Positions 1 to 64,000 of a DNA stretch of 64,000 bases are shown piece after piece. Both the position numbers and the translations under genes were made by a program. The stretch is from Gemmatimonadaceae bacterium. GTDB taxonomy: Bacteria; Gemmatimonadota; Gemmatimonadetes; Gemmatimonadales; Gemmatimonadaceae. Where the stretch lies: the NCBI GenBank assembly GCA_035533015.1, contig DATLUQ010000028.1, positions 1 through 64,000 of the forward strand. The letters run 5' to 3'. How positions within the stretch are numbered: position 1 is the stretch's first letter; the number at the start of each line of letters is the position of its first letter. Under the pieces are notes generated by a model. The model saw nothing but the letters and a program-made list of their open reading frames with translations, had not been told where the DNA came from and searched no databases.

Positions 1-1
1 C

Positions 2-793
2 ATGGCTTCAACCCCGAGGCCGGCAGGGACAGCGCAGGACGGGCTTCTCCGTCCCGTGAGCGGAGGCCGGTCCCAGCCACCAGGCACCACGGTGCGAATC
101 CCCGGCGGTGCGGCTTCTACTCCGGTCGGCCCCGAGGCTCCGGGGACGACGGTTCCCATTGCCGGCGGTGCCGCCTCGACGCCAGTGGCCCCGCAGGCGC
201 CGGGCACGACGGCTCCGATCGCGGGTGGCGCGGCTTCAACGCCGCTCCCGACGCAGCCAGCGGGCACCGGGACGCTCGGGCCACGGCCGGGAGTCCAGAC
301 GCAGCCTCCCGGAACCACGGTCCCGATTCCAGGTGGCGCCGCGTCCACGCCATCGGCCCGGCAGCCACCAGGGAGCGGCGGTCCCATCGCGGGTGGATGG
401 GCCTCAACGCCCGTCGGGCCGCAAGCTCCGGGCACCACCGTCCCGATTGCCGGCGGCGCGGCTTCGACACCCATCGGGTCGTCCGTCCCTGTCTGGACCG
501 CCCCGCTGTCGTCCGGCCCGGAACCGGTGCCAACCGCCACCCCGGCCGGCCCAGTGGCGCCCGGCGTGCTCGATCAGATGCGCGAGTCGATCGGGTTGCC
601 GGCGATGGCGGCCCCGCAGAACTCAGCCGCCGCCGGCCCGACGCTGACCGCCGCGCCCGCAAGCACCGACGTCCTGTCGAGACTTCGGCAGGCGATCGTG
701 CCGCAGTTGCGGCAGCCGCACGGCCGAACGCCGGCACAGCTCGCCCGGGACCTCAAGCGCAGCCGAGAGTTCGGACCGCGATTCGCCACTTGA
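2..793 (+). CDS. Repeat-rich protein, 5' truncated by window edge
   Basis: No function recognised. The frame is open from the window edge to TGA at 791-793. Residues about 27-162 are six units with the pattern PGTTVPIAGGAASTP, each 20 aa, plus one degenerate 16-aa unit. The C-terminal 100 residues are different: Ala/Pro-rich, ending in a basic segment (TPAQLARDLKRSREFGPRF). The apparent first methionine (MASTP) sits exactly where the repeats read AASTP or WASTP, so it is probably an internal residue of another unit and the true start lies upstream. It is followed after 16 nt by two phage-type genes on the same strand, so a phage structural or accessory role is possible, but only by context. 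Confidence 0.55.
   Translation: MASTPRPAGTAQDGLLRPVSGGRSQPPGTTVRIPGGAASTPVGPEAPGTTVPIAGGAASTPVAPQAPGTTAPIAGGAASTPLPTQPAGTGTLGPRPGVQTQPPGTTVPIPGGAASTPSARQPPGSGGPIAGGWASTPVGPQAPGTTVPIAGGAASTPIGSSVPVWTAPLSSGPEPVPTATPAGPVAPGVLDQMRESIGLPAMAAPQNSAAAGPTLTAAPASTDVLSRLRQAIVPQLRQPHGRTPAQLARDLKRSREFGPRFAT
80..487 (+). repeat. In-frame 60-bp tandem repeats
   Basis: Units begin at 80, 140, 200, 260, 308, 368 and 428. All are 60 bp except the fourth, which is 48 bp and the most diverged. They encode PGTT-x-PI-x-GGAASTP followed by a variable five-residue linker. The copies differ mostly at silent or linker positions, so the array is old enough to have drifted but the protein pattern is kept. Confidence 0.85.
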
Positions 794-809
794 TTCTAGG
801 GGGGACACT

Positions 810-1292
810 GTGAATCGCAAAGAGATTTCGGCCCGAAATCGGTTGGGGGGCGAGGGAAGAACCGCGAAGAAAACCGCTAACAAAACCGCTAAGCCGTCTC
901 CGCGTAGCGGCGTGTCTCTCCCGGTGGGAGCCCACCCCGGGAACACCGGTGGCAAGAAGGGCCGCTCGGGGCGCCTGCCGTCGATGATCCGCGACCTGGC
1001 GCGCGAGGGGTTCGCCGACAACCTGGATACCCTGATACAGATGGCCGACGGCCACGTGGTCCGCCGCGTGCGGGTCGGCGATGCAGAAACAGAGAGCGTG
1101 GTCAACGTCGAGGTGTCGGACCGACTGCGCGCGATCGACCTGCTCGGGAAGTATGGACTCGGCACGGTCCGCGAGGTGAGCATCGAGGACGTGCGGGAAC
1201 GGGTGCACCGAACGCTCGACGTCGTTCAGGAGCGCACGTCGCCGGACCAATGTGCAGCGATCATTGAAGCGATCAGGCCCATTTGGCGATGA
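810..1292 (+). CDS. Phage-type hypothetical protein with KTANKTAK/GNTGGKxGRSG module
   Basis: Protein of 160 aa starting at GTG, chosen because a purine-rich AGGGGGGAC lies 6-14 nt upstream. The first 55 residues are basic and hold KKTANKTAK, LPVGAHPGNTGGKKGRSG and a Pro/Ser step. The same module recurs at the start of the next gene, which is fused to a terminase small subunit. The remainder is acidic and helical-looking (RDLAREGFADNLDTLIQMADG) with no recognised domain. The Gly-rich segment recalls the short DNA-packaging-associated N-terminal modules seen in phage genes, but I cannot assign a family. Adjacent to the terminase gene, so packaging-related is the best inference. Confidence 0.6.
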   Translation: MNRKEISARNRLGGEGRTAKKTANKTAKPSPRSGVSLPVGAHPGNTGGKKGRSGRLPSMIRDLAREGFADNLDTLIQMADGHVVRRVRVGDAETESVVNVEVSDRLRAIDLLGKYGLGTVREVSIEDVRERVHRTLDVVQERTSPDQCAAIIEAIRPIWR

Positions 1293-1400
1293 ACCAGCTC
1301 TCGAAAGTCCGAAATGGAAAGCACCGCGAGCAGCTGCATGCAAGACGCAGCGCGCTCCGACCGGACCTCGGATACTCACACTTCGGACGAGGTGACCGAA

Positions 1401-2270
1401 ATGGCTGAGAAGTCGAAATCGTCTGCTGTCGCTGAGAAAACCGCGAACAAAACCGCGAAGCTTGCACCGCCATCAGGTAGGAACGGAAACAGGTTGCCGG
1501 TTGGGGCGCACTCCGGCAACACTGGTGGCAAGCCTGGACGCTCCGGTAGGCCAAGCAGGGCGTTCAAGGCGACGATCGCCGAGCTGCAACGCGACCCCGA
1601 TCTCCACGACGCGCTACGCGAGGCTGCCTCCGACCCGAACCACAAGAACTTCGCCGCGGCCTGGGGTGTCATCACGAAGTTCGGCCCCTTGGACGATGGT
1701 CAGCAACCGGCGATGACGCCGGAGCAGGCGATGCAACTCATCGCGGAGCGCCTGAGTGTGGCCGCTGAGCGTCGGAAGGCGGCTATCATGATGAGAGTGG
1801 ACATGCGAACCGGGGCGCCCGCAGGATGCGGCCTGACCGCCAAGCAGGGGCGCTTCGTCGATGAGTACCTGATCGACCTCAACGCGACGCAGGCGGCGAT
1901 TCGGGCCGGCTACAGCGAGCGAACGGCCCGGTTCATCGGCGCAGAGAACCTAACAAAACCCAACATTGCCGCGGCGATCGCAGCGCGTACGGCCGAGGTG
2001 TGCGAGCGCCTTGGGCTCACGAAGGAGTGGGTGCTGACGCGTCTCAAGGAGAATGTTGAGCGGGCGATGCAGGCGGAGCCGGTGAAGGACAGCAAGGGCA
2101 AGGAAACCGGCGAGTATACGTACCAGGGCGCGGCGGCCAACAAGGCCCTGGAACTGCTGGGCAAGCACGTCGGCCTGTTTACCGACAAGTTGGACGTGGA
2201 CTTCAATGACCTGTCCAGCATTTCGGACGCGGAACTCGAGCGGCGGCGGCGTGAGTTGCGGCTAGTGTGA
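1401..2270 (+). CDS. Phage terminase small subunit (Terminase_2-like), N-terminally extended
   Basis: Small terminases recognise phage DNA and hand it to the large-subunit motor. The C-terminal half (from about residue 130 of 289) has the family hallmark LTAKQGRFVDEYLIDLNATQ followed by AAIRAGYSERTA, then an alpha-helical oligomerisation-type region. The N-terminal 110 residues repeat the KTANKTAK and GNTGGKPGRSGRP module of the preceding gene, making this a two-part protein. The start ATG at 1401 is preferred over 1314 because GAGGTG lies 7 nt upstream; the upstream part is low-quality coding. No large terminase follows: a 54-aa ORF overlaps the stop, then the strand switches. This suggests a decayed or partial prophage. 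Confidence 0.85.
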   Translation: MAEKSKSSAVAEKTANKTAKLAPPSGRNGNRLPVGAHSGNTGGKPGRSGRPSRAFKATIAELQRDPDLHDALREAASDPNHKNFAAAWGVITKFGPLDDGQQPAMTPEQAMQLIAERLSVAAERRKAAIMMRVDMRTGAPAGCGLTAKQGRFVDEYLIDLNATQAAIRAGYSERTARFIGAENLTKPNIAAAIAARTAEVCERLGLTKEWVLTRLKENVERAMQAEPVKDSKGKETGEYTYQGAAANKALELLGKHVGLFTDKLDVDFNDLSSISDAELERRRRELRLV

Positions 2271-2431
2271 CGACGGCGGAGGTGGCGCGCCGGCGCCAGC
2301 ACGTCGTCAAGGACGGCCGCCTCTGGCACGACCCGTCGCCGCGACCCATCCCGGTCGCTCGGTACGCGGAATACCAGATCCTCGTGCCGCTCATGCCACA
2401 GAGTCCGCGTCGGCTCAAACGGGCGGCGTGA
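2267..2431 (+). CDS. Small ORF translationally coupled to terminase small subunit
   Basis: A 54-aa frame opens with GTG at 2267, inside the terminase stop (GTGTGACG), and ends with TGA at 2429-2431. The product is basic and Pro/Arg-rich (RLWHDPSPRPIPVARYAEY near the middle) with no recognised domain. The overlapping start and continuing strand argue for a real coupled gene. It could instead be the surviving 5' end of a larger phage gene, since the sequence after it switches to a leftward gene. Function unknown. Confidence 0.4.
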   Translation: MTTAEVARRRQHVVKDGRLWHDPSPRPIPVARYAEYQILVPLMPQSPRRLKRAA

Positions 2432-2438
2432 GGGGCTA

Positions 2439-2951
2439 CTAATTGACGATGACCGCCACGGTGGCCCCGCGGGCGACGTCTACGTGCTTCCAGACCACCC
2501 CGCCCTGCCTCGTCAGCGTTCCCCACACCGGGTCTGGGGCGTCCCAGGTGACCACGGTGCGCACCAAGTACGCCCCCGGCGGCAGGCTGTCGAACTCGAA
2601 CCGGCCGTCACCGTCGGCGGTGACCATGCGCCGCGCGCGCCGAAACAGCCCGGTCGTGTCCGGGGGGTCCTGCAGGAAGGTGCCGAGGTCTGTGCCGCGC
2701 TGGGTGAACCACTCCATCGAGAACTGCGTAGCCGGATCCAACGTCACCTCCCGGCCGGCCGCGGTGCGCACCTGCCCTCCGCGGGTCGTGAGGAACGCCT
2801 GCCCTTTGAGCGTGGCGGTCCCAGGCGCCAGATAGGCCGCATACGCCGTCGTTGACGGCGGCCCGGAGAACCGCAACGGGGCGAGCGGCGCAGGCGGCGT
2901 GACGCACGCCCCGATCACCAACAGCGGAATGAGTGCCATAAGTCGTTTCAC
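2439..2951 (-). CDS. Predicted lipoprotein with carboxypeptidase-regulatory-like beta domain
   Basis: Protein of 170 aa. GTG at 2949-2951 is chosen because GGAGG lies 8 nt upstream and it gives a classic signal: KR, a hydrophobic run MALIPLLVIG and lipobox LVIGAC with Cys16. A longer frame from 2993 would bury the signal. The rest is beta-rich; residues about 125-155 (GDGRFEFDSLPPGAYLVRT) match the look of transthyretin-like or CarboxypepD regulatory domains, which end in a short strand pair after PPG-x-Y. Probably anchored to a membrane leaflet facing the periplasm or exterior. It is monocistronic and convergent with the terminase block, so likely not a phage gene. Specific role unknown. Confidence 0.65.
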   Translation of the reverse strand: MKRLMALIPLLVIGACVTPPAPLAPLRFSGPPSTTAYAAYLAPGTATLKGQAFLTTRGGQVRTAAGREVTLDPATQFSMEWFTQRGTDLGTFLQDPPDTTGLFRRARRMVTADGDGRFEFDSLPPGAYLVRTVVTWDAPDPVWGTLTRQGGVVWKHVDVARGATVAVIVN

Positions 2952-3256
2952 AATCACACCCTCCAAAAGGTTCCCCGCCGTATAATGGCGCACTTGTGGC
3001 CCCCACCTACAGTGCTAGCGCGTCCCTTACAAACAGTTGACCGTCCCCCCGCTTGAGGAGCAGGGATTATGGGTCGGTTGAAGTAGCGGTAAAGGTGAAT
3101 GCTCTAGCAAAGCTCCCTGGCGTGCGGTCCGCAAGGCTGCTTTACCGTTGCGACATTGAAGGCCGCACGGCTCGCTCTCCGGTTCGGGAGGGCGGCCCGT
3201 TTTGCGTTTGTCCGACCAGCCCAACGAGCACACCGTGCCATGAAGTGAAGGTGAGT
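2952..3256. other. 305-nt gap with two predicted RNA hairpins
   Basis: No credible gene is seen here. It holds an 8-bp perfect inverted repeat (CGGTAAAG at 3087-3094, CTTTACCG at 3140-3147) enclosing a small palindrome TGCGGTCCGCA, then a second hairpin at 3161-3197 followed by TTTTGCGTTT. The order of stem, spacer, hairpin and T-tract resembles a small rightward transcript, but no convincing promoter with a 16-18 nt spacer was found. The region also contains the start side of the leftward lipoprotein gene, with an AT-rich CATTATAC 30 nt upstream of it. Confidence 0.4.
3161..3206 (+). terminator. Possible intrinsic terminator
   Basis: GGCCG at 3161 pairs with CGGCC near 3193. Inside, CTCTCCG pairs with CGGGAG around a GTT loop with one bulge. 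The stem is followed by CGTTTTGCGTTTG on the plus strand. The U-tract is interrupted and no gene on this strand lies immediately upstream, so confidence is low. Confidence 0.3.
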
Positions 3257-3925
3257 TCACCCCCCATGCCGCAGAGCCGAAGCTTTCCATCGTCTGTCGG
3301 CTGCTCTGCGCGCCTTCTTCTCCGCCCGCCTGACCTGGGTGTCCACCGTGGTGCGCTTCTTCCCGAACGCGCGCGCAGTTTCCGCGATCGATGGCCGGCC
3401 GGTGATCGCTTGGCGCCGCAGGTCATCGAGGATCGCTTTCTGACCTGGCGACGCTTCGGCGTAGAGGTCCTCTACTGACGGCTCGCCATACTTGGGGACG
3501 TCGGGATCGTAATCGAAGTACAACTCGTAAATCTCCTCGCCGTCGAGGCCGATTTCGAATTTGGGGTCGCCCGGGGTGGTGAACGGATACGGCTGGTTCA
3601 ACAGGTCCGCGCGCGCCGCTTTTATGGCCTCACGCCTGAGCCACTTGGCGAACGCTGGCCCTACGAAGACTTGTGACGGAATGACCAGACGGCGGCTGTT
3701 GCGCTTGATGCGCTGTGGTTCGTTTCGACTGCCCCACGCGAGGCAGAGGCCGACCTTTACTGCGTACACCTTGACCGAAGCGAGCGAAATTCGTTCTGCT
3801 CGCGCACGCGCGAGGAGCGCGGCGAGAAGCCGGTGCCCGCGGATGATCCACCCGGTGGCGATCGCCCCCGCAAGTCCGAGCACCTCAGGTGGGATCCCGG
3901 CTGATTCCCCGCCCGCGTCAGCCAC
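3257..3925 (-). CDS. Helix-turn-helix (sigma region 4-like) phage/accessory protein
   Basis: Protein of 222 aa, starting at GTG 3923-3925 that overlaps the stop of the upstream zinc-ribbon gene by 8 nt (GTGGCTGA), so translation is probably coupled. A weak hydrophobic stretch lies near residues 12-28 (VLGLAGAIATGWIIRG). The middle is basic, then an acidic linker (DYDPDVPKYGEPSVEDLY). The last 55 residues have the helix-turn-helix look of sigma region 4: SPGQKAILDDLRR, then RPSIAETARAFGKKRTTVDT and a basic tail. It may be a late-gene regulator of a phage or other element. It ends the three-gene leftward cassette. Family assignment is uncertain. Confidence 0.55.
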   Translation of the reverse strand: MADAGGESAGIPPEVLGLAGAIATGWIIRGHRLLAALLARARAERISLASVKVYAVKVGLCLAWGSRNEPQRIKRNSRRLVIPSQVFVGPAFAKWLRREAIKAARADLLNQPYPFTTPGDPKFEIGLDGEEIYELYFDYDPDVPKYGEPSVEDLYAEASPGQKAILDDLRRQAITGRPSIAETARAFGKKRTTVDTQVRRAEKKARRAADRRWKASALRHGG

Positions 3926-4292
3926 GATTCGCGGCCTCGGTCTCGCCGGTAGTCGGGTACTGCGACCGGTACACAAGGCGCAGGCAGGACCGACACGCCC
4001 GCTCCTGCCCGCCGGCCGGGCGGAGTAGGACCCGCCGCCGACTGCCGCACCGCGGACAGACGAGCCACCAACAGCGGCCTCCGAGCGTGCCCGGCGTGCT
4101 CGCTACCTGAAGACGGGCGGTCGTGCCCCGACTCGTTCGGATATGCCACCCGGTAACCTCGGCTCCAGCGGGCGGATGGCCATAGACCCGCTGCAGGTCA
4201 GTGATGCGCAGTGCCCGGCATTCCTCGACCGTCAGGCGCCGTTGCCGTCGCGACGGTGTTTTCGCTAGCCCGCTTTCAGCGGCGTTGGTCAT
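3918..4292 (-). CDS. Zinc-ribbon protein (mobile-element associated type)
   Basis: Protein of 124 aa. ATG at 4290-4292 is preferred over 4313 because AAAGGAGTT lies 6 nt upstream. The C-terminal part carries CPRC (about residue 80) and CRSC about 18 residues later, followed by LRLVYRSQ. This pairing of a short zinc ribbon with a YRSQ-type end is common in small proteins near phage-like elements, whose function is not established. The N-terminus is basic with a helical RLTVEECRALRITDLQRVYG. Starts within the stop region of the upstream zinc-ribbon gene and overlaps the downstream helix-turn-helix gene by 8 nt. Likely nucleic-acid binding by inference only. Confidence 0.6.
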   Translation of the reverse strand: MTNAAESGLAKTPSRRQRRLTVEECRALRITDLQRVYGHPPAGAEVTGWHIRTSRGTTARLQVASTPGTLGGRCWWLVCPRCGSRRRVLLRPAGGQERACRSCLRLVYRSQYPTTGETEAANRG

Positions 4293-34320: not shown

Positions 34321-34348
34321 TTGACACCACCCTGCGGCACGGTAGATT
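34321..34348 (+). promoter_or_regulatory. Sigma-70-type promoter upstream of purA
   Basis: TTGACA at 34321-34326, a 16-nt spacer and TAGATT at 34343-34348 (4 of 6), the same spacing as the fusA promoter. The expected transcript start, near 34355, falls at the left arm of the hairpin at 34354-34382, so the purA mRNA would begin with that stem. Confidence 0.6.
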
Positions 34349-52488: not shown

Positions 52489-52526
52489 TCACGATGGGAA
52501 GAAAAACCAACAGGGAGGGAAGACCC

Positions 52527-53327
52527 ATGGTCAAATATATCGGCCGTCTGGGGGCTGCGCTGGCTGTGACGGCCATGCTCGCGGCGTGCGGCGGCAAGGG
52601 CGAATCTGCGAGCGCCGACTCGTCGGCGGCCAAGGATCTACAGATGGCGGGCGACTCGGCGGCCGCACAGCCGTCGCTCGCCGATACGGCGGCGGCGCCC
52701 GCCAGTGCGCCCGCCAGAGTGCGTCCCAGTGCGGCGGCTCCGACACGGCGTGCCGAGGGCGCCAGCCGGCCCGCGGAGGCCCCCAAGTCAGAGCCGGCCC
52801 GGCCCGCCGGCGAGATCGCGGCGGGCGAGACGCTCCTGTTGCACCCGAGTCAGAAGGTGTGCACCAACACCAATAAGGTGGGTGACGTCGTGCAAGCGAC
52901 GGTGGCGGCGGCCGTACCGGGCAGCAACGGCGTGAGCATTCCCGCCGGTGCCGTCGTGAGGTTGACGATCACCGCGCTCAAGCGCAGTGAGAACGTCAAG
53001 GACCCGATCGACATGGGGTTCAGGGTCGAGTCGGTGACGTTCGCGGGTCAGACGTATGCGATGAGCGCGACCGTGACCGCAGAAGCCATCGATCACGTGC
53101 GGAACGAACCCACCAGCAAGGACGTCCAGAAAGTCGTGGGTGGGGCCCTGGTGGGCGCCATCGCCGGCAAACTCATCGGCAAGAGCACGACGGGAGCCGT
53201 GGTCGGCGGCGCTGCCGGCGCCGCGGCGGGCGCTGGCGTGGCCGCCACCACCGCGAACTTCGAGGGCTGCATCGCCGAGGGCAGCGACATGACGGTGAAG
53301 CTCACGGCCCCGGTAGTTATAAAGTAA
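52527..53327 (+). CDS. Lipoprotein with C-terminal glycine-zipper
   Basis: 266 aa. ATG at 52527 is chosen over 52494 because GGGAGGGA precedes it; the signal is VKYIGRLGAALAVTAMLAAC with Cys21 in the lipobox LAAC. An Ala/Pro/Ser-rich linker to about residue 90, then a beta-rich part (GETLLLHPSQKVCTNTNK, GVSIPAGAVVRLTI), and a pair of glycine-zipper helices (VVGGALVGAIAGKLIGK and AVVGGAAGAAAGAGVAA). Such zippers insert into or across membranes. The last three sense codons (GTT ATA AAG) and the following bases are AT-rich. Role unknown. Confidence 0.75.
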   Translation: MVKYIGRLGAALAVTAMLAACGGKGESASADSSAAKDLQMAGDSAAAQPSLADTAAAPASAPARVRPSAAAPTRRAEGASRPAEAPKSEPARPAGEIAAGETLLLHPSQKVCTNTNKVGDVVQATVAAAVPGSNGVSIPAGAVVRLTITALKRSENVKDPIDMGFRVESVTFAGQTYAMSATVTAEAIDHVRNEPTSKDVQKVVGGALVGAIAGKLIGKSTTGAVVGGAAGAAAGAGVAATTANFEGCIAEGSDMTVKLTAPVVIK

Positions 53328-53499: not shown

Positions 53500-54423
53500 G
53501 TGGCCGCCAGAGCGAACGACCCGCGTATCACCGAGCAGCGCAATCCGCGCACGGCCGACATCGACCTCGCCACGCCGTTGGAGATCGTCGATCTCCTCGC
53601 CGCCGAGGACCGCGCCGTGCCGGCCGTCGTGCACCGGGAGCGGGACCGGATCGCCGCGGCGATCGCCGAAGCCGAGCGCACCTTTCGCCGCCGCGGCCGC
53701 CTGTTCTACGTGGGCGCCGGAACGTCCGGACGGCTGGGCGTGCTCGACGCGTCGGAGTGCCCGCCCACTTTCGGCACCGATCCGGAGATGGTGCAGGGGA
53801 TCATCGCCGGCGGTCCTGACGCGCTCACGCGATCGCAGGAGGGGGCCGAGGACGTGGTGGAGCACGCGGTGCGCGACCTGGACGCGGCCGGCGTGCGGGC
53901 CGGCGACTTCGTGATCGGCATCGCGGCGTCGGGCACCACGCCGTATGTGCGCCGCGCCCTGGAGCACGCCCGGCGGCTGGGCGCGAGCACCGCCTTCGTG
54001 GCCTGCTCCCCACCCCCCGCTGGCGAGGCGCCACCGGCCGATATCGTGATCCTGCCGGTCACCGGCCCCGAGGCGGTTACGGGGTCCACGCGGCTCAAGG
54101 CGGGCACCGCCACCAAGCTGGTGCTCAACATGATCACCACCGGCGCCATGATCCGGCTGGGCAAGACCTACGGCAACCTGATGGTGGATCTACGTGCCAC
54201 CAACGCCAAGCTGGCCGACCGCAGCGAACGCATCGTGATGGAGGTGTGCGACGTGCCACGCGAGGCGGCGCGGGCGCTGCTGGCCGCGGCCGGCGGCGCC
54301 GTGAAGCTGGCGATCGTCATGCACGTGCTCGACACGGACGCCGCGGGTGCCCAAGCAGCCCTCGTCCGCGAGGGGGGCGTGATCCGGCGCGTGATCGGCC
54401 GCACGCCGCCGCCGGTCCCATGA
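53500..54423 (+). CDS. murQ: N-acetylmuramic acid 6-phosphate etherase
   Basis: 307 aa, standard. Cleaves MurNAc-6P to GlcNAc-6P and D-lactate in wall recycling. SIS fold with VGAGTSGRLGVLDASECPP (about residues 71-89) and GIAASGTTPYV; family ends STRLKAGTATKLVLNM and NLMVDLRATNAKLADR are intact. GTG start; overlaps anmK by 4 nt. A 170-nt leader separates it from the lipoprotein gene and contains the hairpin CGGTA-GACT-TACCG at 53419-53432. Confidence 0.95.
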   Translation: MAARANDPRITEQRNPRTADIDLATPLEIVDLLAAEDRAVPAVVHRERDRIAAAIAEAERTFRRRGRLFYVGAGTSGRLGVLDASECPPTFGTDPEMVQGIIAGGPDALTRSQEGAEDVVEHAVRDLDAAGVRAGDFVIGIAASGTTPYVRRALEHARRLGASTAFVACSPPPAGEAPPADIVILPVTGPEAVTGSTRLKAGTATKLVLNMITTGAMIRLGKTYGNLMVDLRATNAKLADRSERIVMEVCDVPREAARALLAAAGGAVKLAIVMHVLDTDAAGAQAALVREGGVIRRVIGRTPPPVP

Positions 54424-55580
54424 CCGACGCCGGGGCGCGCCCGCCCCTCTACGTAGGGCTCATGTCGGGCACGTCGCTCGACGGGATCACCGCCGTGGCG
54501 GTCCGCTTCCACCCGCGCGACACGGGCTTCGACCCCGAGATGTGCGCCTTTAGCGTTATGGAATATACGGCCAACCAACGCGACGCTCTGCACCGGGCGA
54601 TGTCGGTGGGCACGGCGGAGGAGTACTGCGTGCTGCAGTTCGCCCTCGGCGGCTGGCTGGCCGAGGCCGCGGTGGCGGTGATCGCCGAGGCCGGCGTGCC
54701 GCGCGAGGAGATCCGCGCCATCGCCTCGCACGGGCAGACGCTCTGGCATGCGCCGCCCCATGCCACCTGGCAGATCGGCGAATCGGCGGTGATCGCCGAG
54801 CGCACGGGCGTGGACGTGGTGAGCGACTTCCGTGTGCGCGACGTGGCGGCGGGCGGGCAGGGGGCGCCGCTCGTGCCCATCGCCGACGCGCTGCTGTTCG
54901 CCGGCGACTCGTGGCGCGCGCTGCAGAACATCGGCGGCATGGGCAACGTCACCATCGTGCCCCCCGGGGGCGCGCTGGGCGGCGTGCGCGCCTTCGACAC
55001 GGGGCCGGGCGTGGCGGTGCTGGACGGCGTGGTGCGGGCGCTCTATCCCGGCATTCGCTACGACCACGCCGGCGCGTTCGCTCGGCAGGGCGTCCCGATC
55101 GACGCCGTGGTGGACGCGCTGCTCACCGACGAGTACTTCGCCGCCGAGCCGCCCAAGTCCACGGGCCGCGAACGGTTCGGCGCCGCCTACGTGGAGCGGG
55201 TGATCGCGCTGTGCCGTGAGGCCGCGCCCGGCGCCGTGCCCGCCGACCTCGCGGCCACCGCCACGGCACTCACGGCGCGCAGCATCGGCGACGCGTACCG
55301 GCGGTTCATGCCCGAGCCGGTGACGGAGGTCCTCGTGTCGGGGGGCGGCGCCCGCAACGAGACGCTCATGGCGATGGTCGCCGCCGAACTGGCGCCGCGC
55401 GCCGTGCGGGCGTTCAGCGATGCCTACTTCGACGACGAGGCCAAGGAGGCGGTGGCGTTCGCGCTGCTCGCGCACCTGTTCCTGGAACGCCTGCCCGGCA
55501 ACGTGCCCCGTGCTACCGGCGCCGCCGGGCCCCGCGTGCTCGGCAAGCTCACGCCCGGTGGGCATCCAGAACGAGGTTGA
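54420..55580 (+). CDS. anmK: Anhydro-N-acetylmuramic acid kinase
   Basis: 386 aa, standard. Phosphorylates 1,6-anhydro-MurNAc to MurNAc-6P, the substrate of MurQ. ATP-site GLMSGTSLDGI (residues 12-22), SHGQTLWH, GGMGNVT, DTGPG and VSGGGARNETLM. ATG overlaps the murQ stop (ATGA), a functional pair. A local AT-rich patch (TTTAGCGTTATGGAATATACG) lies at 54549-54569. Followed by palindromic element C2. Confidence 0.96.
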   Translation: MTDAGARPPLYVGLMSGTSLDGITAVAVRFHPRDTGFDPEMCAFSVMEYTANQRDALHRAMSVGTAEEYCVLQFALGGWLAEAAVAVIAEAGVPREEIRAIASHGQTLWHAPPHATWQIGESAVIAERTGVDVVSDFRVRDVAAGGQGAPLVPIADALLFAGDSWRALQNIGGMGNVTIVPPGGALGGVRAFDTGPGVAVLDGVVRALYPGIRYDHAGAFARQGVPIDAVVDALLTDEYFAAEPPKSTGRERFGAAYVERVIALCREAAPGAVPADLAATATALTARSIGDAYRRFMPEPVTEVLVSGGGARNETLMAMVAAELAPRAVRAFSDAYFDDEAKEAVAFALLAHLFLERLPGNVPRATGAAGPRVLGKLTPGGHPERG

Positions 55581-55736: not shown

Positions 55737-57119
55737 CTACTTGATGATGGCGCGGGCCTCGGGCGGCAGGAACGCCGCCAGCTTGTCGGCCGGGACCGCG
55801 TAGACGATGCGTCCGCCCGCTTCAGCGGGGCCACCGTACACCACGCCCACCACGTCGCCGTCGGCATTGAATACGGGACTGCCGCTGGATCCGTGGGTAG
55901 CGTACGAATCGATCTGGAGCACCGTCGTGACGCGCTTGCTCACCGTGCCGGGATCGAGCGTCGTCTTGGCGACCATGTCGCGTCCCGTCCCCTCCATGGG
56001 GAGGTCGGTGGCGAGCGGGAATCCGATCGTGACCACGGCCGCGCCTTCAGGCGCCGCGGTGGCCGAAGGGCTGATCCCGGCGACCACGGGGTAGGGCCCC
56101 GGCCGGTCCACCTGCACGAGCGCCAGATCCACCGCCGGATCGTCGCTCACCGTCACGATGTGAGCGGGCAGCAAGTCCTTGGAGTCGCGGAAGGTGACGG
56201 CGATCCGCGTGGCCGGTGTGCCGCCGGCGCTCTGCACGTTGTGCCGGCTGGTGACGAGCAGGCCGCCGCCGGTGACCGCGAATGCGGTGCCGGCGTACGC
56301 TTGGTTGTTCATCTCCGAATAGAGAATGGCCACGGCCGGCGCGTTGCGCGCGTTGATGGCCGGCACGTCCATCGTCACCAGGGCGCGCTGCGACCGGAGG
56401 TCGGTCCGGATGGAATCGATCGTGCCGGCCGCGTGGGCCGGCGCGCGGGCGATCCGTGCGCGCAAGGAGTCGCTGTTACGCGCGAGCGCCCGGATGAAGT
56501 TCGTGTCGGCCATCGCGGTCAGTCTGGCGTCGAGGGCTGCCGAGGCCGATTCGTTCTGGGCCAGCATCTCGCGGAGCTGCTGCATCTGTGCCGCCGCGGC
56601 GCGGTTGCCCAGCCAGAACGCGATTCCGATGCCCGCGCCGAGCAAGATCACGGCGGCGATCAGTAATCGAATCAGGTGCGCCGACTGGGCCCGCACGGCG
56701 ATGGCGATACGCTCGGTGGTCGGCCGGCGGGGCGTCTCGTTGACCGGTGCCGCCGGCGTGGCCCGCGGTCTCCGCCGGCCGGCTCCGCGCGTGGCGGTGG
56801 GGGCGTCGGCGGCCACGAAGCGGACCTCCACCTGGGGACCGTGCACGCCGAACGCGATGCGGTCGCCGTCCGCGAGTTCCCGGTCGGGGAGTACGCGCTC
56901 GCCGTTCACGAACGTGCCGTTGGTGCTCGTATTGTCGTGGATGACGTAGCGGCCGTCGTGGCCGCGGATCTCGGCGTGCCGGGCGGATACGTCGAGGTCG
57001 CGCTCGGGATCGAAGCGCAGGTCGCTGAGAGGATGGCGTCCGACCGCGATCACGGACTTGTCGAACACCGCCCGCTGGCCGGCGCGCGCGCCGCCCAGGA
57101 TGCGGATCTCGAGCGGCAC
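55737..57119 (-). CDS. FHA domain - membrane span - trypsin-like serine protease fusion
   Basis: 460 aa. FHA domain at residues 5-100 with GRHPLSDLRF, SARHAEI and the phospho-Thr loop TSTNGTFVNG. A linker of Pro/Arg, a single span near 150-170 (LIRLLIAAVILLGAGIGIAF), then a short coiled-coil. The trypsin-like domain begins near 255, with H293 (TSRHN), D331 (VDLALVQ) and S412 (HGSSGSP). So phospho-binding is cytosolic and proteolysis periplasmic. Last gene of the leftward signalling operon, 1 nt after the phosphatase. A phospho-signal across the membrane could control the protease (inference). Confidence 0.88.
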   Translation of the reverse strand: MPLEIRILGGARAGQRAVFDKSVIAVGRHPLSDLRFDPERDLDVSARHAEIRGHDGRYVIHDNTSTNGTFVNGERVLPDRELADGDRIAFGVHGPQVEVRFVAADAPTATRGAGRRRPRATPAAPVNETPRRPTTERIAIAVRAQSAHLIRLLIAAVILLGAGIGIAFWLGNRAAAAQMQQLREMLAQNESASAALDARLTAMADTNFIRALARNSDSLRARIARAPAHAAGTIDSIRTDLRSQRALVTMDVPAINARNAPAVAILYSEMNNQAYAGTAFAVTGGGLLVTSRHNVQSAGGTPATRIAVTFRDSKDLLPAHIVTVSDDPAVDLALVQVDRPGPYPVVAGISPSATAAPEGAAVVTIGFPLATDLPMEGTGRDMVAKTTLDPGTVSKRVTTVLQIDSYATHGSSGSPVFNADGDVVGVVYGGPAEAGGRIVYAVPADKLAAFLPPEARAIIK

Positions 57120-57120
57120 G

Positions 57121-58266
57121 TCAGTTCCGGGCCTTGCCCAGCCACCACGCGGCGGCGGCGACCACGGCGATCACCAGCGCGCCCAGGAGCAGGCGCTGCA
57201 TCATCCGGCCGCGGGCGCGCCGCTCCTCGGTTACCAGCGGTTGCTCCTCCGCCGCGCGTACCGGCACCGTCTCGCGGGTCACGGCATGCACGGGCGTGGT
57301 CGCGTGCCCGCTCTGATCGTCGAGCAGGCGGTCCACGCCCCGGGACGGTGTGTTCCCGGAGTCCGCGAGCGGGTAGACACGATGGCGCACTTCGTCGCTG
57401 TGGGCCGGGGCGCTCAACCCCTCGCCGTCGAAGCGCACCGCGATCACGGTGATGTTGTCGGGGCCGCCCGCGCTGTTGGCGAGGTCGATGAGCTGCTTGC
57501 ACGCCGCCACGAGGTCCGGCTGGTCGCGGATCACCTCGGCAATCTGGTCGCGCGAAACCTGGCCCGACAGGCCGTCGCTGCAGAGCACGAGTACGTCGTC
57601 GCGGCGGAGCTTCTGGTGCGTGAGGTCGATCTTGACCGTGGCTTCGGGGCCCAGCGCCTGAAGGATGATATTGCGGCGCTCGCTGCGTTCGGCCTCCTCC
57701 TCGGTGAGCTCGCCCGCCTCGACCAGTTTCTGCATGAGCGACTGGTCTTTGGTGATCTGGCGGGCCACGCCATCGCGCACGAGGTAGGCGCGGCTGTCGC
57801 CGACCTGGGCGAGGTAGAGGGTGTCGCCCAGGAGGCCGGCGATCGTCGCCGTGGTGCCCATGCCACGGTATTCGGGGTGGTGGGCGGCGAACGCGTTGAT
57901 CTCGGCATTGGCCACCACGGCGGCGCGCCTGAGCGCGGCGGCGAACGCGTCGGCCGTTGGGTCGGCGTGGGCCAGCCAGTCGCGGCGCAACTCGCGCAGC
58001 ACGATGGCGGTGGCCATCTCGCTGGCGATCTCGCCGGCGGCAGCGCCGCCCATGCCGTCGGCCACCATGAACAGGGACCCGCGTTCCCCGGCCTCGTGGG
58101 TGCGGACCGTGGGCAGGAGCGACGCGTCGTCCGTCGTGAGGTCGGCCACGACGAACGCGTCCTCGTTGTGCTCGCGCGTGCGTCCCACGTCGGTCTTGGC
58201 GAAGACGTGAACGATCACGGGTCCGCGGGCAGCGCCGCCGGAGGATGGCATGGACTGAGGATTCAC
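57121..58266 (-). CDS. PP2C-type Ser/Thr phosphatase, C-terminal membrane anchor
   Basis: 381 aa. Metal-dependent phosphatase that opposes the kinase upstream. Motifs: TREHNEDAF, VADGMGGAAAGEIAS, GMGTTATIAGL, QVGDSRAYL, CSDGLSG and GPDNITVIAV. After about residue 270 a linker leads to a single C-terminal span (LLLGALVIAVVAAAAWWLG), so the enzyme is tethered to the inner membrane on its cytosolic side. Begins 10 nt after the kinase gene stop and ends 1 nt before the FHA-protease. Confidence 0.93.
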   Translation of the reverse strand: MNPQSMPSSGGAARGPVIVHVFAKTDVGRTREHNEDAFVVADLTTDDASLLPTVRTHEAGERGSLFMVADGMGGAAAGEIASEMATAIVLRELRRDWLAHADPTADAFAAALRRAAVVANAEINAFAAHHPEYRGMGTTATIAGLLGDTLYLAQVGDSRAYLVRDGVARQITKDQSLMQKLVEAGELTEEEAERSERRNIILQALGPEATVKIDLTHQKLRRDDVLVLCSDGLSGQVSRDQIAEVIRDQPDLVAACKQLIDLANSAGGPDNITVIAVRFDGEGLSAPAHSDEVRHRVYPLADSGNTPSRGVDRLLDDQSGHATTPVHAVTRETVPVRAAEEQPLVTEERRARGRMMQRLLLGALVIAVVAAAAWWLGKARN

Positions 58267-58276
58267 GAGGTTGCGG

Positions 58277-59932
58277 CTAGTTGCAGGAGATGTGCAACAT
58301 GATGGATCTTACGGTGCTGTCCTGCGACGCCGTCGACGCCTTGTCCTTGATGCCCCGGAGAATCGCACACCCACTGTCGTTGAGGCCGACGGACCCCAGA
58401 GCTGCTGCGCGAATGATGGCGGCCGACACGTTCTGCACGGGCGTGGCGAGCCTTCCGGAGAGCGTGTCCAACGCCTGGAGGACGCGTTGGGCTGCGGGTT
58501 TGTCAAAGTTGCTGTCGGTGACCAGGGAGTCGAGCCGCGTGAGCTCGGCGTCCACGTCCGCCGCTGAAGCGGCGGGTGGTCCCGCCTGATTCGCCCCCGG
58601 CTTCAACGCCGGCGGCCCGATCGGCTTGTTGGCGGCGCGTCCCGCCGCGTCACGTTCGGCGTTCGCGTTCTGCGGCGAAGCCCCGTTGCCATGCTCGGTG
58701 GAATCTGCCGCCGCCCCGCTCGCTTGGCGGGGGGCCGGTGCCGCGTTCGCCGGCTTGCGCATCTGCAGCATCACCGTCATGACCCCGCCGAGCGCCACCA
58801 CCGTGGCGATGGCGGCGATGAGCGGCGTCTTGCTCTTGCCGGCTGGTGTGGCCGCGGGGGCCGGCCTGGCCGGCGCGATACTGGCCGCCGCTGTGACGCG
58901 CGTGGCCGGCACGGCCGCCGTACGGGTCGTGGCCGCTCCGATCACCTGCGTACTCGCCTCGGCGGCCAGGCTCAGCGGCATGGCGCTCACCGCCCGATAG
59001 AGGTCACGCCCGAACTCCGGCGCCGTCTGGTACCGTCGGTTGGCGTCGCGTTCCAGCGCCTTGTCCAGCACCGCCTGCACGTCGGCGGGCCACGCCACGT
59101 CGGGCTTCATCTCCGGCAGTCGACTGGGCCTGTCGGTGAGGCGCACGAGCATTGCCTGCTGCGCCGATTCACCACGAAAGGGCAACGCGCCGGTGAGCAT
59201 GTGAAAGGCCACCAGGCCCAGCGAATAGATGTCGCTCCGCCCGTCGAGCGGGTCGCCCGCCAGCTGCTCGGGGCTCATGTACTCGGGGGTGCCGATCACG
59301 AAGCCCGTCCTCGTGACCTTCTGCGCGTCGTTGCCGGCGGCCTTGGCGATGCCGAAGTCCACGACCTTCACCAGGTCCGACCCGTCGGGCGTCTTGGCGA
59401 CCAGGATGTTGTCGGGCTTGAGATCGCGGTGCACGATGCCCATGTCGTGGGCGGCGGCCAGCGCGTCGGCGGCCTGGCGCACGATGGCGGCGGCGCGGAG
59501 CGGGGGCAGCGCCCCGTGCCGCGCGATGAGCGTGGTGAGCGACGGGCCGTCCACGAACTCCATCGCCAGGTAGATCAGGCCGTCGCTGGTTTCACCAAAG
59601 TCGTATACCGCGGCCACGTGGGGATGGCTGATGCGGCTGGCGTTCGACGCTTCGCGGTTGAACCGGGTGATCGCGTCGGCGTCGTGCCCCAAGCCGGGAT
59701 TCATCACCTTCACGGCGCTCTTGCGCCCCATCCTGACGTGCTCGGCCAGGTAGACCCGGCCCATGCCGCCCTCGCCGAGCTTTCGCAGGACGCGGTAGCG
59801 GTCGGCGATGACCGACCCGACGAGATCATGGTCGCCTCCCGGCGTGCGCAGCGTGGCGCCGTCCTTGGGGCAGAACCGCTGGTCGAGCTCGTACTCGGCT
59901 CCGCACTGGGGGCAGGTCTTCAGATGGCTCAC
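58277..59932 (-). CDS. Membrane Ser/Thr protein kinase with N-terminal zinc ribbon
   Basis: 551 aa. Zinc ribbon CPQC...CPKDG (residues 8-24), then kinase domain: LGEGGMGRVYLAEH, SAVKVM, IVHRDLKPDNIL, VDFGIAKA and TPEYMSPEQL. One span near 372-392 (LIAAIATVVALGGVMTVML), then a low-complexity linker and an external helical domain without PASTA repeats, ending HISCN. The external part may sense a periplasmic ligand. The start overlaps the stop of the upstream FHA gene by 4 nt (59929-59932). Confidence 0.92.
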   Translation of the reverse strand: MSHLKTCPQCGAEYELDQRFCPKDGATLRTPGGDHDLVGSVIADRYRVLRKLGEGGMGRVYLAEHVRMGRKSAVKVMNPGLGHDADAITRFNREASNASRISHPHVAAVYDFGETSDGLIYLAMEFVDGPSLTTLIARHGALPPLRAAAIVRQAADALAAAHDMGIVHRDLKPDNILVAKTPDGSDLVKVVDFGIAKAAGNDAQKVTRTGFVIGTPEYMSPEQLAGDPLDGRSDIYSLGLVAFHMLTGALPFRGESAQQAMLVRLTDRPSRLPEMKPDVAWPADVQAVLDKALERDANRRYQTAPEFGRDLYRAVSAMPLSLAAEASTQVIGAATTRTAAVPATRVTAAASIAPARPAPAATPAGKSKTPLIAAIATVVALGGVMTVMLQMRKPANAAPAPRQASGAAADSTEHGNGASPQNANAERDAAGRAANKPIGPPALKPGANQAGPPAASAADVDAELTRLDSLVTDSNFDKPAAQRVLQALDTLSGRLATPVQNVSAAIIRAAALGSVGLNDSGCAILRGIKDKASTASQDSTVRSIMLHISCN

Positions 59933-60837
59933 ACGCTCTCCACCCGCAGGACCTGATCACCCAGCAGCAGCCGCTGTCCCTTCTTGAGTGCCTGCTCGCC
60001 GCGCACGGCGAGCGCGACGCCGTTGCGGCTGCCGGCGTCGTGGACGGAGAAATCGGAGTTGGCCGATCGGATCTCGGCGTGGCGCCCGCTCATCGTCTGA
60101 TCGTACGGAAAGGTCCAGTCTCCCGTTTCGCGGCCGATGAGAATGCTGCGTCCCGGGGAGAGGTGGAAGGTGTCGCGTACGCTGCCGTCGGCGCGGAGTT
60201 GTTCCAGCACTGCCACGTCCACCGACGGCACGAGCGAACCCATGCGACGCGTGGAGTCGGCCTCGGGGGCGTGGGGACCCGGATATCCCAGCCGCCGGAA
60301 GCGCAGCACCTGCGATCCCACGAGCACACGGTCGCCGTCGATCAGCCTGACGCCACCCTCGATGAAAGCCCAGCTCGCGTTGCGCGAGCCGAGGTCGCGC
60401 ACCCAGAGCACGCCCTCGCGCAGGTCGAACCGCGCGTGCAGCGGCGACATGTACACGTCGTCGGAGAACTTGATGTCGGCTTCGCTCCGACCCACCACGG
60501 CCTCGCCCCGGTCGAGGTTGAACGTCCTCGCCACGTCGCCGGCGTCGTTGAGAAGCGCGAGCCGTGGGCCCACCTCGCGCCGGCCGCCGCCCAGCCCCAG
60601 AGTGCCCGGTGCCAGCGGTTGGTCCCCCACCGACACGCGCTTGCCCACCCGCGATCCGCATCGAGCGCAGAACATGTCCGCTCCCTGCTGGAACGGCGCC
60701 CCGCAGTTGGCGCAACTGCCTTCCGCCGGGGCCACCGACATGCGGTTGCCGCAGTGCGGGCAGAACGGCAGCGAGGCTTCGACGGTCTTGGCGCACCGGG
60801 AGCAGGTGGCGCTGGAGGCGGGTTGAGAATCGGCCAT
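59929..60837 (-). CDS. Double zinc-ribbon, double FHA domain protein
   Basis: 302 aa. Two zinc ribbons: CSRC/CPHC (residues 9-30) and CANC/CARC (about 41-60). FHA 1 near 95-180 (VVGRSEADIKF, SPLHARF, GSRNASWAFIE) and FHA 2 near 220-302 (LIGRETGDWTF, SGRHAEI, GSRNGVALAVRG). Binds phospho-Thr proteins; presumably an adaptor for the downstream kinase and phosphatase. First gene of the operon, behind the promoter at 60984-61012. No membrane span. Confidence 0.9.
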   Translation of the reverse strand: MADSQPASSATCSRCAKTVEASLPFCPHCGNRMSVAPAEGSCANCGAPFQQGADMFCARCGSRVGKRVSVGDQPLAPGTLGLGGGRREVGPRLALLNDAGDVARTFNLDRGEAVVGRSEADIKFSDDVYMSPLHARFDLREGVLWVRDLGSRNASWAFIEGGVRLIDGDRVLVGSQVLRFRRLGYPGPHAPEADSTRRMGSLVPSVDVAVLEQLRADGSVRDTFHLSPGRSILIGRETGDWTFPYDQTMSGRHAEIRSANSDFSVHDAGSRNGVALAVRGEQALKKGQRLLLGDQVLRVESV

Positions 60838-60983: not shown

Positions 60984-61012
60984 AATATAGGACGCATGGA
61001 ATAGAGGGTCAA
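60984..61012 (-). promoter_or_regulatory. Promoter of the FHA-kinase-phosphatase-protease operon
   Basis: On the minus strand TTGACC (61012-61007), exactly 17 nt, TATATT (60989-60984): 5 of 6 matches in both boxes, the best promoter match in the window. Leaves about 140 nt of leader before the ATG at 60837. Confidence 0.7.
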
Positions 61013-61087: not shown

Positions 61088-62719
61088 ATGCCGCGATCTG
61101 CCGCACGCTCCGCGCTGGCCGCTGCCGCCTTGGTCGCGGCGTGCGTTCCATCCACCGTCCCCGTTTCGCCACCGACGCCCGCCGCTGCCGACTCGGGCCG
61201 TGGCGCCGGCGCCCCGTCCACGCGGCCGGTGGCGCGCCGCGCGCCCGGGCCCGGCGGTGGGCCCCCGGCTTCCCTCCCGCCGATTCCCTTCGTGGCGGGC
61301 GCGCTCAGCCTCCACGTGGTCTATCCCGCGATCGGCCAGCTGATCACGTCGCGCGACTCCACCTACGTGCTGGGCTCGGTGGGAAACGGCGATGCCAAGC
61401 TCACCGTGGACGGGGAGCCCGTGCGTGTGTATCCCAACGGGGCATTCATGGGATTCGTGGCCAATCCGCCTGCGGGGGCGCCGCAATACGATCTCACTGC
61501 GGTGCTCGGCGCCGACACCGTGCGCGCCACGCATCAGGTACGGGTGCGTAGTCCCGAGACGGAGCGCTGGCCATCCGAGCCGCCCGCGTTCGATTCCACC
61601 GCCGAGTGGGTGCGCCTGGACGATCCGACCTCCCTGCTGCCGGACACCGACCAGACGATCGTGGCGCGTCCCACGCCGGGCGAGACGTACCACTGGTTCT
61701 TGTTGCCCGGCACGGTGGTGTGGCGCAGCGGCCGCGTGGGCGGGTACACGCGGATCCAGCTGGACAGTGGGCTTGCCGTGTGGGTTCCCGATTCGCTCAC
61801 GCACGCGGTTGACGCCACTGCTGCGCCGCATCGCGTGGCCCAGGACGCCGAAGTGGTTTCGGCGCCCGGATGGGCCGACTTCGTGCTTCCCGTGGGGCAG
61901 CGGCCACCGTACGTCGTGGAGGAGCGCAACCATGCGATCGACCTCACGCTCTACGGCACGCGCGGCAACACCGACATCATCAAGTATCCGACGGACGATT
62001 CGCTGATTCGCCGCGTCGACTGGGCGCAGGTGCGCGGCGATCGCGTGCGCTACACGCTGCATCTGAGCCGCCGGCCGTTCGGCTACCTCGTACTCTGGCG
62101 CGACGGGCGGTTCGTGCTCCGCGTGCGCCGGCCGCCGGTGGTGAACGCGGCGCATCCGCTCCGCGGCCAGGTGATCGCGGTGGACGCGGGGCATCCGCCA
62201 GGCGGCGCCACCGGGCCCACGGGTCTCCCGGAATCCGACGCCACGCTGGCGGTGGCCCGGCGGCTCCAGACGTTGCTCGAGGCCGAGGGCGCGACGGTGG
62301 TGATGACGCGCGACACGCCCGACGCCGTCGCGCTCGACGACCGTCCCGTGATCGCCCGGCGTGCCGATGCCGACGCGTTCGTGTCCATCCACCTCAACGC
62401 TTTTCCCGACGGTGTGAACCCGTTCACGGCCACCGAGGGGAGTGCGACGTACTACTACTACGGGGAGGCCGAGCCGCTGGCCCGCGCGGTGCAACAGGGT
62501 GTCGTGCGCCACCTCGGGCTTCCCGACCAGGGCATCGTGTTCCGCAGCCTGGCCGTGGCGCGACAGACGTGGGTGCCGTCGATTCTCTGTGAGGGTGCGT
62601 TCGTCATCATTCCCCAGCAGGAGGCTGCGCTCCGCACGCCGGCATTCCAGGACGCGTATGCGCGGGGCCTGGCCGCCGGGCTGGTGGCCTACTTCCGCGG
62701 CCTGGGAGCGTCGTCGTGA
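61088..62719 (+). CDS. Lipoprotein N-acetylmuramoyl-L-alanine amidase (Amidase_3)
   Basis: 543 aa. Signal with lipobox LVAAC (Cys19). A Pro/Ala linker, an N-terminal beta-rich part with repeated strand patterns (about 70-350) that may bind wall, then the amidase domain at about 358-540: VDAGHPPGGATGP (first zinc His), SDATLAVARRL (Glu-type segment changed to PESD), VSIHLNAFPD (second His) and LCEGAF with catalytic Glu. Cuts the bond between MurNAc and the stem peptide; anchored in a membrane. The next gene starts at the TGATG overlap. Confidence 0.85.
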   Translation: MPRSAARSALAAAALVAACVPSTVPVSPPTPAAADSGRGAGAPSTRPVARRAPGPGGGPPASLPPIPFVAGALSLHVVYPAIGQLITSRDSTYVLGSVGNGDAKLTVDGEPVRVYPNGAFMGFVANPPAGAPQYDLTAVLGADTVRATHQVRVRSPETERWPSEPPAFDSTAEWVRLDDPTSLLPDTDQTIVARPTPGETYHWFLLPGTVVWRSGRVGGYTRIQLDSGLAVWVPDSLTHAVDATAAPHRVAQDAEVVSAPGWADFVLPVGQRPPYVVEERNHAIDLTLYGTRGNTDIIKYPTDDSLIRRVDWAQVRGDRVRYTLHLSRRPFGYLVLWRDGRFVLRVRRPPVVNAAHPLRGQVIAVDAGHPPGGATGPTGLPESDATLAVARRLQTLLEAEGATVVMTRDTPDAVALDDRPVIARRADADAFVSIHLNAFPDGVNPFTATEGSATYYYYGEAEPLARAVQQGVVRHLGLPDQGIVFRSLAVARQTWVPSILCEGAFVIIPQQEAALRTPAFQDAYARGLAAGLVAYFRGLGASS

Positions 62720-64000
62720 TGCGGCGTCTGTTGCTGGCCCTGGCGCTCCTCGGCGGGCGGTCCGTCGCGGTGCAGGCGCAGGTCGTGCCCAACGCCGATT
62801 GGCACACCATCACCACCACGCACTTTCGCGTGCACTTCACGCCGGCGCTCGAGTCGTTGGCCCGCCGCGCCGCCGCCTCTGCCGAGACCGCGTACGTGCA
62901 GCTGTCGGCCGAACTGCACCCACCGCGCGGCATGATCGATCTCATCGTCGCCGACAACATCGATGCCACCAACGGCTACGCCACGCCCTTTCCCACCAAC
63001 CGCATCGTCATCTATGCCAACCCGCCGGTGAACGAGACCGCGCTGCGGTTCACCGACGATCCCGACGCGATGGTGGTGACGCACGAACTCACGCACATCT
63101 TCCAGCTCGACCGAACGCGTGGCATCTGGACGCTGGCCCAGCACGTGTTCGGGCGCGCGCCGTACCTGTTCCCCGAGGAGTACATCCCGGCCTGGCTCCG
63201 CGAGGGGTTGGCCGTCTATTACGAGTCGAAGCTCACTGGCGCCGGCCGCGTCCTCGGATCCGACCACCCGATGATCGCCCGCGCCTTCGCCAGCGAGCAC
63301 CGGTTTCCGTCCATCGATCGCATCAGCTTGGGCGACGTCCGGTTTCCGTACGGGAACACGCCCTACGTATTCGGTTCGCTTTTCATGGACTATCTGGCGC
63401 GGACGCGCGGCGATCACATCCGGACGTTCGTCGAGTCCGAGGCCGACCAGCTCGTGCCGCTCTGGATCGACCGGCCGGCCAAGCAGGCGTTCGGCATCTC
63501 GTTCAGCCACGCCTGGCGGCAGTGGAGCGACTCGATGACCGCGGCGGCGCCCGATCCGTCGCTGCCGGCACCCGGCTGGCGCTACCTGACCGCGGCCGGC
63601 GGGTTCGCGAGCTTTCCGCGTTGGGCCGACGACACCGCCATCGTCTATTCGGGTACGACGGGGCGCGACAGTTGGGGGGCGTACAGCGTGACGCTCGACG
63701 GCACCGTGGATCGCATCGACCGGCGGAACAGCGACTCGCCCACGCTGCTCGCGCCCGGCAACGAGCAGCTGTACACGCAACTCGAATACGTGGATCCGTA
63801 TACCGTGCGTTCTGACCTGTTCGAGCGGCGTGGGGGCGAGACGCTGCGGCTCACCCGGGGCGAGCGGATCAGCGTGCCCGACCGGCGCGCGGACGGGCGC
63901 ATCGTGGCGGTGCAGACGTTGCCCGGCGCCACCCGCCTGGTCACCCTCCAGTGGGACGGCACCGGTCTGCGGCCGCTCACGGTGGGGAGCCCCGACGAGC
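62719..64000 (+). CDS. Exported HExxH metallopeptidase with beta-propeller, truncated by window edge
   Basis: Open from ATG at 62719 to the window end, 427 codons with no stop. Signal peptide at residues 1-20 (LLALALLGG ... VQAQ). Gluzincin-type zinc site: HELTH at 122-126 and WLREGLAVYYE with Glu162. After about residue 290 the pattern TAAGGFASFPRWADDTAIVY and YSVTLDGTVDRI recalls TolB/WD-like propeller blades. Similar to peptidase MA-like proteins with propellers common in some environmental bacteria. The ATG overlaps the amidase stop, so the two are one unit. Confidence 0.8.
   Translation, partial: MRRLLLALALLGGRSVAVQAQVVPNADWHTITTTHFRVHFTPALESLARRAAASAETAYVQLSAELHPPRGMIDLIVADNIDATNGYATPFPTNRIVIYANPPVNETALRFTDDPDAMVVTHELTHIFQLDRTRGIWTLAQHVFGRAPYLFPEEYIPAWLREGLAVYYESKLTGAGRVLGSDHPMIARAFASEHRFPSIDRISLGDVRFPYGNTPYVFGSLFMDYLARTRGDHIRTFVESEADQLVPLWIDRPAKQAFGISFSHAWRQWSDSMTAAAPDPSLPAPGWRYLTAAGGFASFPRWADDTAIVYSGTTGRDSWGAYSVTLDGTVDRIDRRNSDSPTLLAPGNEQLYTQLEYVDPYTVRSDLFERRGGETLRLTRGERISVPDRRADGRIVAVQTLPGATRLVTLQWDGTGLRPLTVGSPDE

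Follow-up and report, generated by a model that had tools for sequence, protein, structure and literature searches.

In actinobacteria, a PP2C phosphatase, a membrane Ser/Thr kinase and FHA proteins are encoded with peptidoglycan genes at the locus fhaA-fhaB-pstP-rodA-pbpA-pknA-pknB (PMC6554272), and PknB is phosphorylated on its activation loop and juxtamembrane region (PMC6428115). In Mycobacterium ulcerans, an FHA protein, MupFHA, docks on the activation loop of the syntenic membrane Ser/Thr kinase PknQ (PMC4238996). MarP, also mycobacterial, is a membrane-anchored periplasmic protease that cleaves the wall hydrolase RipA (PMC6628586). Here, we analyzed a 64,000-nucleotide stretch of a Gemmatimonadaceae bacterium (assembly GCA_035533015.1, contig DATLUQ010000028.1, positions 1 to 64,000; hereafter the window), in which four minus-strand genes running from 60837 to 55737 encode an FHA adaptor, a membrane Ser/Thr kinase, a PP2C phosphatase and a membrane protein with an FHA domain and a protease domain (FHA-protease). 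On balance, we lean towards the view that this operon is a transmembrane signalling unit, conserved in Gemmatimonadota and tied to peptidoglycan turnover, in which the kinase acts through FHA on the protease outside.

Among known arrangements, the actinobacterial locus comes nearest: the operon is similar to it in principle without being a member. Both encode a PP2C phosphatase of the same broad family (PstP in actinobacteria), a membrane Ser/Thr kinase and FHA proteins together with peptidoglycan genes, in a conserved order. However, the actinobacterial locus lacks a protease, and its wall genes serve synthesis, whereas those of the operon serve turnover and recycling. PknB carries PASTA repeats, whereas the operon kinase, from a different phylum, carries a zinc ribbon at its N-terminus, and its ectodomain is helical. 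As with PknQ and MupFHA, an FHA protein is encoded near a membrane kinase, whose activation loop is bound in the case of MupFHA; no protease domain is reported for MupFHA, and the organism and setting differ. MarP and the operon protease are both membrane-anchored periplasmic chymotrypsin-like serine proteases, but MarP has four transmembrane helices and no FHA domain, whereas the operon protease has one transmembrane helix and an FHA domain. DegS and HtrA serine proteases have the protease-domain fold in common with it (Foldseek), and a single transmembrane helix at the N-terminus also anchors DegS; unlike these proteases, the operon protease has no PDZ domain, and its regulatory domain is a cytosolic FHA. 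A literature search returned nothing relevant on FHA-protease fusions or on this operon in Gemmatimonadota, a result that makes novelty provisional, as most subscription journals lay outside the search.

Adjacent genes of the operon lie close together: adaptor and kinase overlap by 4 bases, and gaps of 10 bases and 1 base separate kinase from PP2C and PP2C from FHA-protease. The four gene products and their coordinates, as proposed in a first-pass annotation of the window, were borne out by the open reading frames (ORFs), Pfam and NCBIfam models, hydropathy and AlphaFold2. Its term "phospho-relay" was a misnomer, since no phosphate is passed chain-wise among the encoded parts. The best named relatives were Gemmatimonadetes metagenome-assembled genomes, among them a Longimicrobiales genome and one that bears the label Gemmatimonas phototrophica. 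We searched for the protease in 60 relatives plus 298 genomes of the phylum plus one family and fetched the neighbourhoods. Gene order, which the annotation had named as a check, proved strongly conserved: among the sampled loci of the order, the full set of four genes was present in 64, and seven lacked the adaptor alone. In other orders of the class, the kinase-PP2C-FHA-protease core was kept with no wall genes beside it; two loci of these orders had kinase and FHA-protease only.

The FHA-protease (460 amino acids; 55737..57119, minus strand) matched Pfam FHA (66.2 bits) and Trypsin_2 (69.0 bits), and its AlphaFold2 model consisted of an FHA domain, a long transmembrane and stalk helix (residues 136-202) and a protease domain. 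The cytosolic FHA domain (residues 25-91; 56847..57047, minus strand) has the phosphothreonine-binding core GR, S-x-x-H and S/T-x-N-G, with R28, S45, H48, N67 and G68 invariant, and the core residues were kept across kinase-bearing loci with readable ORFs. Hydropathy indicated a single transmembrane segment (residues 142-160; 56640..56696, minus strand) in nearly all orthologues. The periplasmic HtrA-like domain (Trypsin_2 residues 277-426; 55842..56291, minus strand) has an intact triad, H293/D331/S412. Its nearest solved folds in Foldseek were HtrA1, DegS and DegP (E down to 1.7e-13), and PDB sequence matches also pointed to HtrA. Pfam found no PDZ domain in the protein, and the cut-offs of the Do/HtrA model TIGR02037 (41.7 vs. 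416.2 bits), the MarP model NF033740 (35.6 vs. 250 bits; only one transmembrane segment is present) and the FhaB/FipA (Rv0019c) model NF049868 (46.3 vs. 125 bits) were not reached. A second, longer FHA-protease type was found away from the wall cluster (L061, L062, L064, L131, L132 and L267); some members have more than one FHA domain, and no PP2C of the operon's PP2C family adjoins them.

The kinase and the FHA-protease were lost and decayed together. Full-length FHA-protease was missing from 28 genomes, 23 of which retained PP2C beside the wall genes (the amidase and, where the contig extends, anmK) at a place where kinase and protease were both missing; three of these 23 loci kept the adaptor directly before PP2C. 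We scored 108 loci by hand from maps, with "kinase absent" meaning absent from the locus: the kinase was present with an intact FHA-protease in 74, the kinase was absent and the protease absent or damaged in 32, the kinase was absent beside an intact protease in two, and none had a kinase beside a damaged protease. That zero was obtained with five loci excluded, in which disrupted or truncated protease ORFs adjoin an intact kinase (e.g., L192, L195 and L196) and which are probable assembly errors or contig ends; the exclusion favours the result, and if all five were counted as damaged, the figure would be 5/79 kinase-bearing loci. The protease was thus absent or damaged in 32/34 kinase-less loci, six of which carry full-length ORFs without catalytic His and Ser. 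In genus g62, each of the three genomes (G211, G250 and G294) had lost the triad His and Ser and the FHA Asn (GSMQG, GSLHG and GSIHG). In G055, G133 (genus g46) and G333 (g133), His and Ser were gone and the FHA core was retained, and in G338 and G273, at loci without kinase, the protease domain was lost. Among kinase-bearing relatives in genus g46, G054 had the whole triad, and G308, whose contig stops short of Ser, had His and Asp. Kinase-less G227 (g64) retained the triad with an FHA motif reading GSAAG, the Asn having been lost; its sister G309 has the same features and was not counted, as its contig stops before the kinase position. In the two exceptions with an intact protease, the kinase was a pseudogene (L137, G156) or its catalytic domain was missing between adaptor and PP2C (L257, G321), and both look like recent kinase losses.

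On a tree of PP2C, AnmK and MurQ, kinase state changed at least nine times; this tree was built by a quick method (LG+G4) and has many open forks, and many of its rows hold PP2C only. Seven independent pairs were available, five of which differed in the same direction, none in the opposite direction and two not at all (sign test p = 0.0625). A single joint deletion was rejected as the cause of co-loss, as PP2C, which lies between kinase and protease, remains. Substitutions in full-length ORFs (g62, G055, G133 and G333) likewise make a single deletion insufficient as an explanation. Kinase relocation was also rejected as a general cause of absence, because the zinc-ribbon kinases that match best in the reduced genomes fall mostly in a separate clade, except in G034.

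PP2C (381 amino acids; 57121..58266, minus strand) is of the Stp1/PstP type, with a C-terminal transmembrane segment at residues 359-377 by hydropathy. It passed the Stp1/IreP family model NF033484 (237.5 bits vs. a cut-off of 230) with its catalytic motifs present. These motifs were intact in kinase-less loci too, so the decay is specific. In many genomes of the same family and some of a sister family, PP2C alone remains between the amidase and anmK-murQ (loci L073-L095). Since it keeps its catalytic motifs, the lone surviving PP2C probably serves other kinases.

The kinase (551 amino acids; 58277..59932, minus strand) comprises an N-terminal zinc ribbon (residues 7-23), which the first-pass annotation had missed, a kinase domain (residues 46-302; Pkinase, 167.7 bits in Pfam) with complete HRD and DFG motifs, a transmembrane segment (residues 371-389; 58766..58822, minus strand; hydropathy 2.42) seen in nearly all orthologues, and an extracytoplasmic domain (residues ~457-547). 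It is not of the Stk1/PknB PASTA type: NF033483 scored 324.8 bits against 450, with the match confined to residues 39-396, and Pfam found no PASTA repeats. AlphaFold2 predicted the extracytoplasmic domain as a confident helical bundle, although the full-kinase model was poor (mean predicted local distance difference test score of 54.5). This domain is poorly conserved and has a long low-complexity stalk, and a search against solved structures gave no match. The activation loop VTKTGLVVGTPEY was nearly invariant. The juxtamembrane region was enriched in T-[RQ]-[VILM] motifs (27 observed vs. 1.9 expected by shuffling; 21/24 sequences), as was the adaptor N-terminus in T-[RQ]-hydrophobic motifs (9 vs. 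0.3), an enrichment confounded by common descent of the sequences and taken as a lead only. Another zinc-ribbon kinase, which shares 52% identity with that of the operon, is encoded in the genome of the window (G000:C3:23705-25120; L104).

The adaptor (302 amino acids; 59929..60837, minus strand) is a soluble protein with a double zinc ribbon (residues 12-61) and two FHA domains (residues ~105-180 and ~222-298). In Pfam, it matched DZR at 28.3 bits (cut-off 27.3) and FHA over two stretches at 62.2 bits (cut-off 20.7). The GR, S-x-x-H and S-R-N cores were kept in both FHA domains across 21 sequences. By NF049868, the adaptor is not FhaB/FipA (Rv0019c) (54.8 bits vs. a cut-off of 125).

These features suggest how such a unit might work. 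The kinase would detect an envelope cue through its helical extracytoplasmic domain and autophosphorylate on threonines of its activation loop and juxtamembrane region. The protease may then dock on these phosphothreonines with its cytosolic FHA domain, as residue conservation and the precedent of FHA proteins binding Ser/Thr kinases suggest; candidate docking sites lie in the activation loop QKVTKTGLVVGTPEYMSPEQ, which is nearly invariant, and in the T-[RQ]-hydrophobic motifs of the juxtamembrane segment. Docking would recruit or switch the HtrA-like protease across the membrane, and the protease could cleave a protein of the envelope; a wall hydrolase is a plausible target, for instance the amidase encoded next to the operon, and cleavage of RipA by MarP would be the nearest analogue. 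PP2C would reset the system, and the adaptor may be an optional second reader or scaffold. In this specific form, the operon would be an inside-out phospho-gate, in which the kinase controls a periplasmic HtrA-type protease via its FHA domain and couples phosphorylation to wall-hydrolase cleavage in a dedicated peptidoglycan-turnover locus, a proposal that we put forward tentatively.

Phospho-control of an external protease had been suggested in the first-pass annotation. The co-decay of the kinase, the FHA phospho-binding residues and the catalytic triad lends independent support to that idea and to a dependency among kinase, FHA domain and protease, whereas the direction, from kinase to protease rather than the reverse, is one that we infer. 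Several observations weigh against control by the kinase. The sign test on independent pairs reached just p = 0.0625, and most genomes are draft metagenome assemblies. L137 and L257 keep an intact protease without a functional kinase, and G034 has a cluster-type kinase elsewhere in its genome without an FHA-protease. In g64 (G227), the triad outlasts the FHA Asn, so the protease can outlive phospho-binding. The full-length FHA-pseudoproteases that have lost catalytic His and Ser (L138, L140 and L141 in g62; L063; L136; L245) have ORFs that remain open, which suggests that they keep a non-catalytic role and that the protein has another role as well. Kinase control of the FHA-protease is itself a prediction from sequence and models, and it is by its neighbourhood only that the amidase becomes a putative substrate.

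Mutual dependence of kinase and protease and retained FHA residues are predicted equally by a reverse flow, in which the periplasmic protease is a sensor or trimmer that cuts the kinase ectodomain or a ligand-bearing protein and thereby sets kinase activity, while the FHA domain holds the complex. The poorly conserved ectodomain with its low-complexity stalk would fit a protease-accessible stalk, and HtrA/DegS-type proteases are known stress sensors. However, both discordant loci had lost the kinase and kept the protease intact, no scored locus paired a damaged protease with an intact kinase, and HtrA sensors normally rely on a PDZ domain, which the operon protease lacks; we therefore consider reverse flow unlikely. 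We are just as doubtful that the FHA domain only anchors a constitutively active protease at the site of the kinase, such as a division or growth zone, without catalytic switching. One transmembrane helix and a long helical stalk offer no obvious conformational path, FHA domains commonly serve as docking modules, and the g64 triad is intact despite loss of the FHA Asn, but anchoring by itself leaves the triad decay after kinase loss (g62, g46 and g133) unexplained. A conserved operon whose genes act separately and were co-lost by ordinary deletions would fit the many Gemmatimonadaceae-level relatives that miss whole segments, but is very improbable given the retained, intact PP2C flanked by kinase and protease, the substitutions in full-length ORFs that drive decay, and the kinase-PP2C-protease core kept in other orders lacking the wall genes.

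The link of the proposed kinase-to-protease unit with peptidoglycan comes from its surroundings, a recycling setting that the earlier reading of the window had overlooked. The amidase, anmK and murQ adjoin the operon as a peptidoglycan-recycling gene cluster. In loci of the order, an N-acetylmuramoyl-L-alanine amidase (Amidase_3, Pfam 127.2 bits; 61088..62719, plus strand) is the divergent neighbour in 81/88 that were testable. The convergent neighbour in 91/94 loci is anmK, encoding the anhydro-MurNAc kinase AnmK (54417..55580, plus strand; NF007148, 428.8 bits, above cut-off; the listed ORF starts at 54246, and 54417 is the likely start). It is adjoined by murQ, encoding the MurNAc-6-phosphate etherase MurQ (53500..54423, plus strand; TIGR00274, 363.2 bits, above cut-off). 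In relatives, a gene for an AmpG-family permease or a GH3 (NagZ-like) protein lies between operon and anmK (L074:10045-11322; L038:7500-8999; L043:10539-12002) and completes a wall-recycling island; these names are by best match (GH3, 177.8 bits against a cut-off of 207; AmpG family, 296 against 350). Behind the amidase, a conserved neighbour (62602-64000, plus strand) encodes a secreted-looking protein with an HELTH motif, for which NamZ was considered and rejected; the corresponding gene in relative L036 gave a weak PD40 beta-propeller match. Beyond murQ, a gene for a glycine-zipper secreted protein (52494-53327, plus strand), which runs divergently from an ABC exporter, holds the same position in many relatives.

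Upstream of the operon, a promoter-like site, TTGACC-17-TATATT (60984..61012, minus strand), lies ~147 bases before the adaptor ATG and matches the consensus at 10/12 positions. It had been called the best promoter in the window. Our scan covered the 60 kb beyond bases 1-4000 and returned three 10/12 matches, the two others (at 34321 and 5563) having 16-base spacers; the site thus has the best spacer, 17 bases, in a three-way tie. We rejected this ranking as evidence, because of the tie and because a consensus match says nothing of function.

How bacterial Ser/Thr kinases act beyond the cytoplasm is a largely open question, on which the operon may bear. Natural loss-of-function lineages, in which the kinase is gone together with the triad or the FHA residues, make testable a dependency that could otherwise only be guessed from the domains. 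If the proposed control holds, an envelope output would be built into a single protein, whose FHA domain reads phosphorylation inside the cell and whose protease acts outside. The operon would then also link Ser/Thr signalling to the wall in a diderm phylum where signalling has seldom been studied by experiment, and would stand beside the PASTA-kinase systems of Gram-positive bacteria as a parallel but distinct locus.

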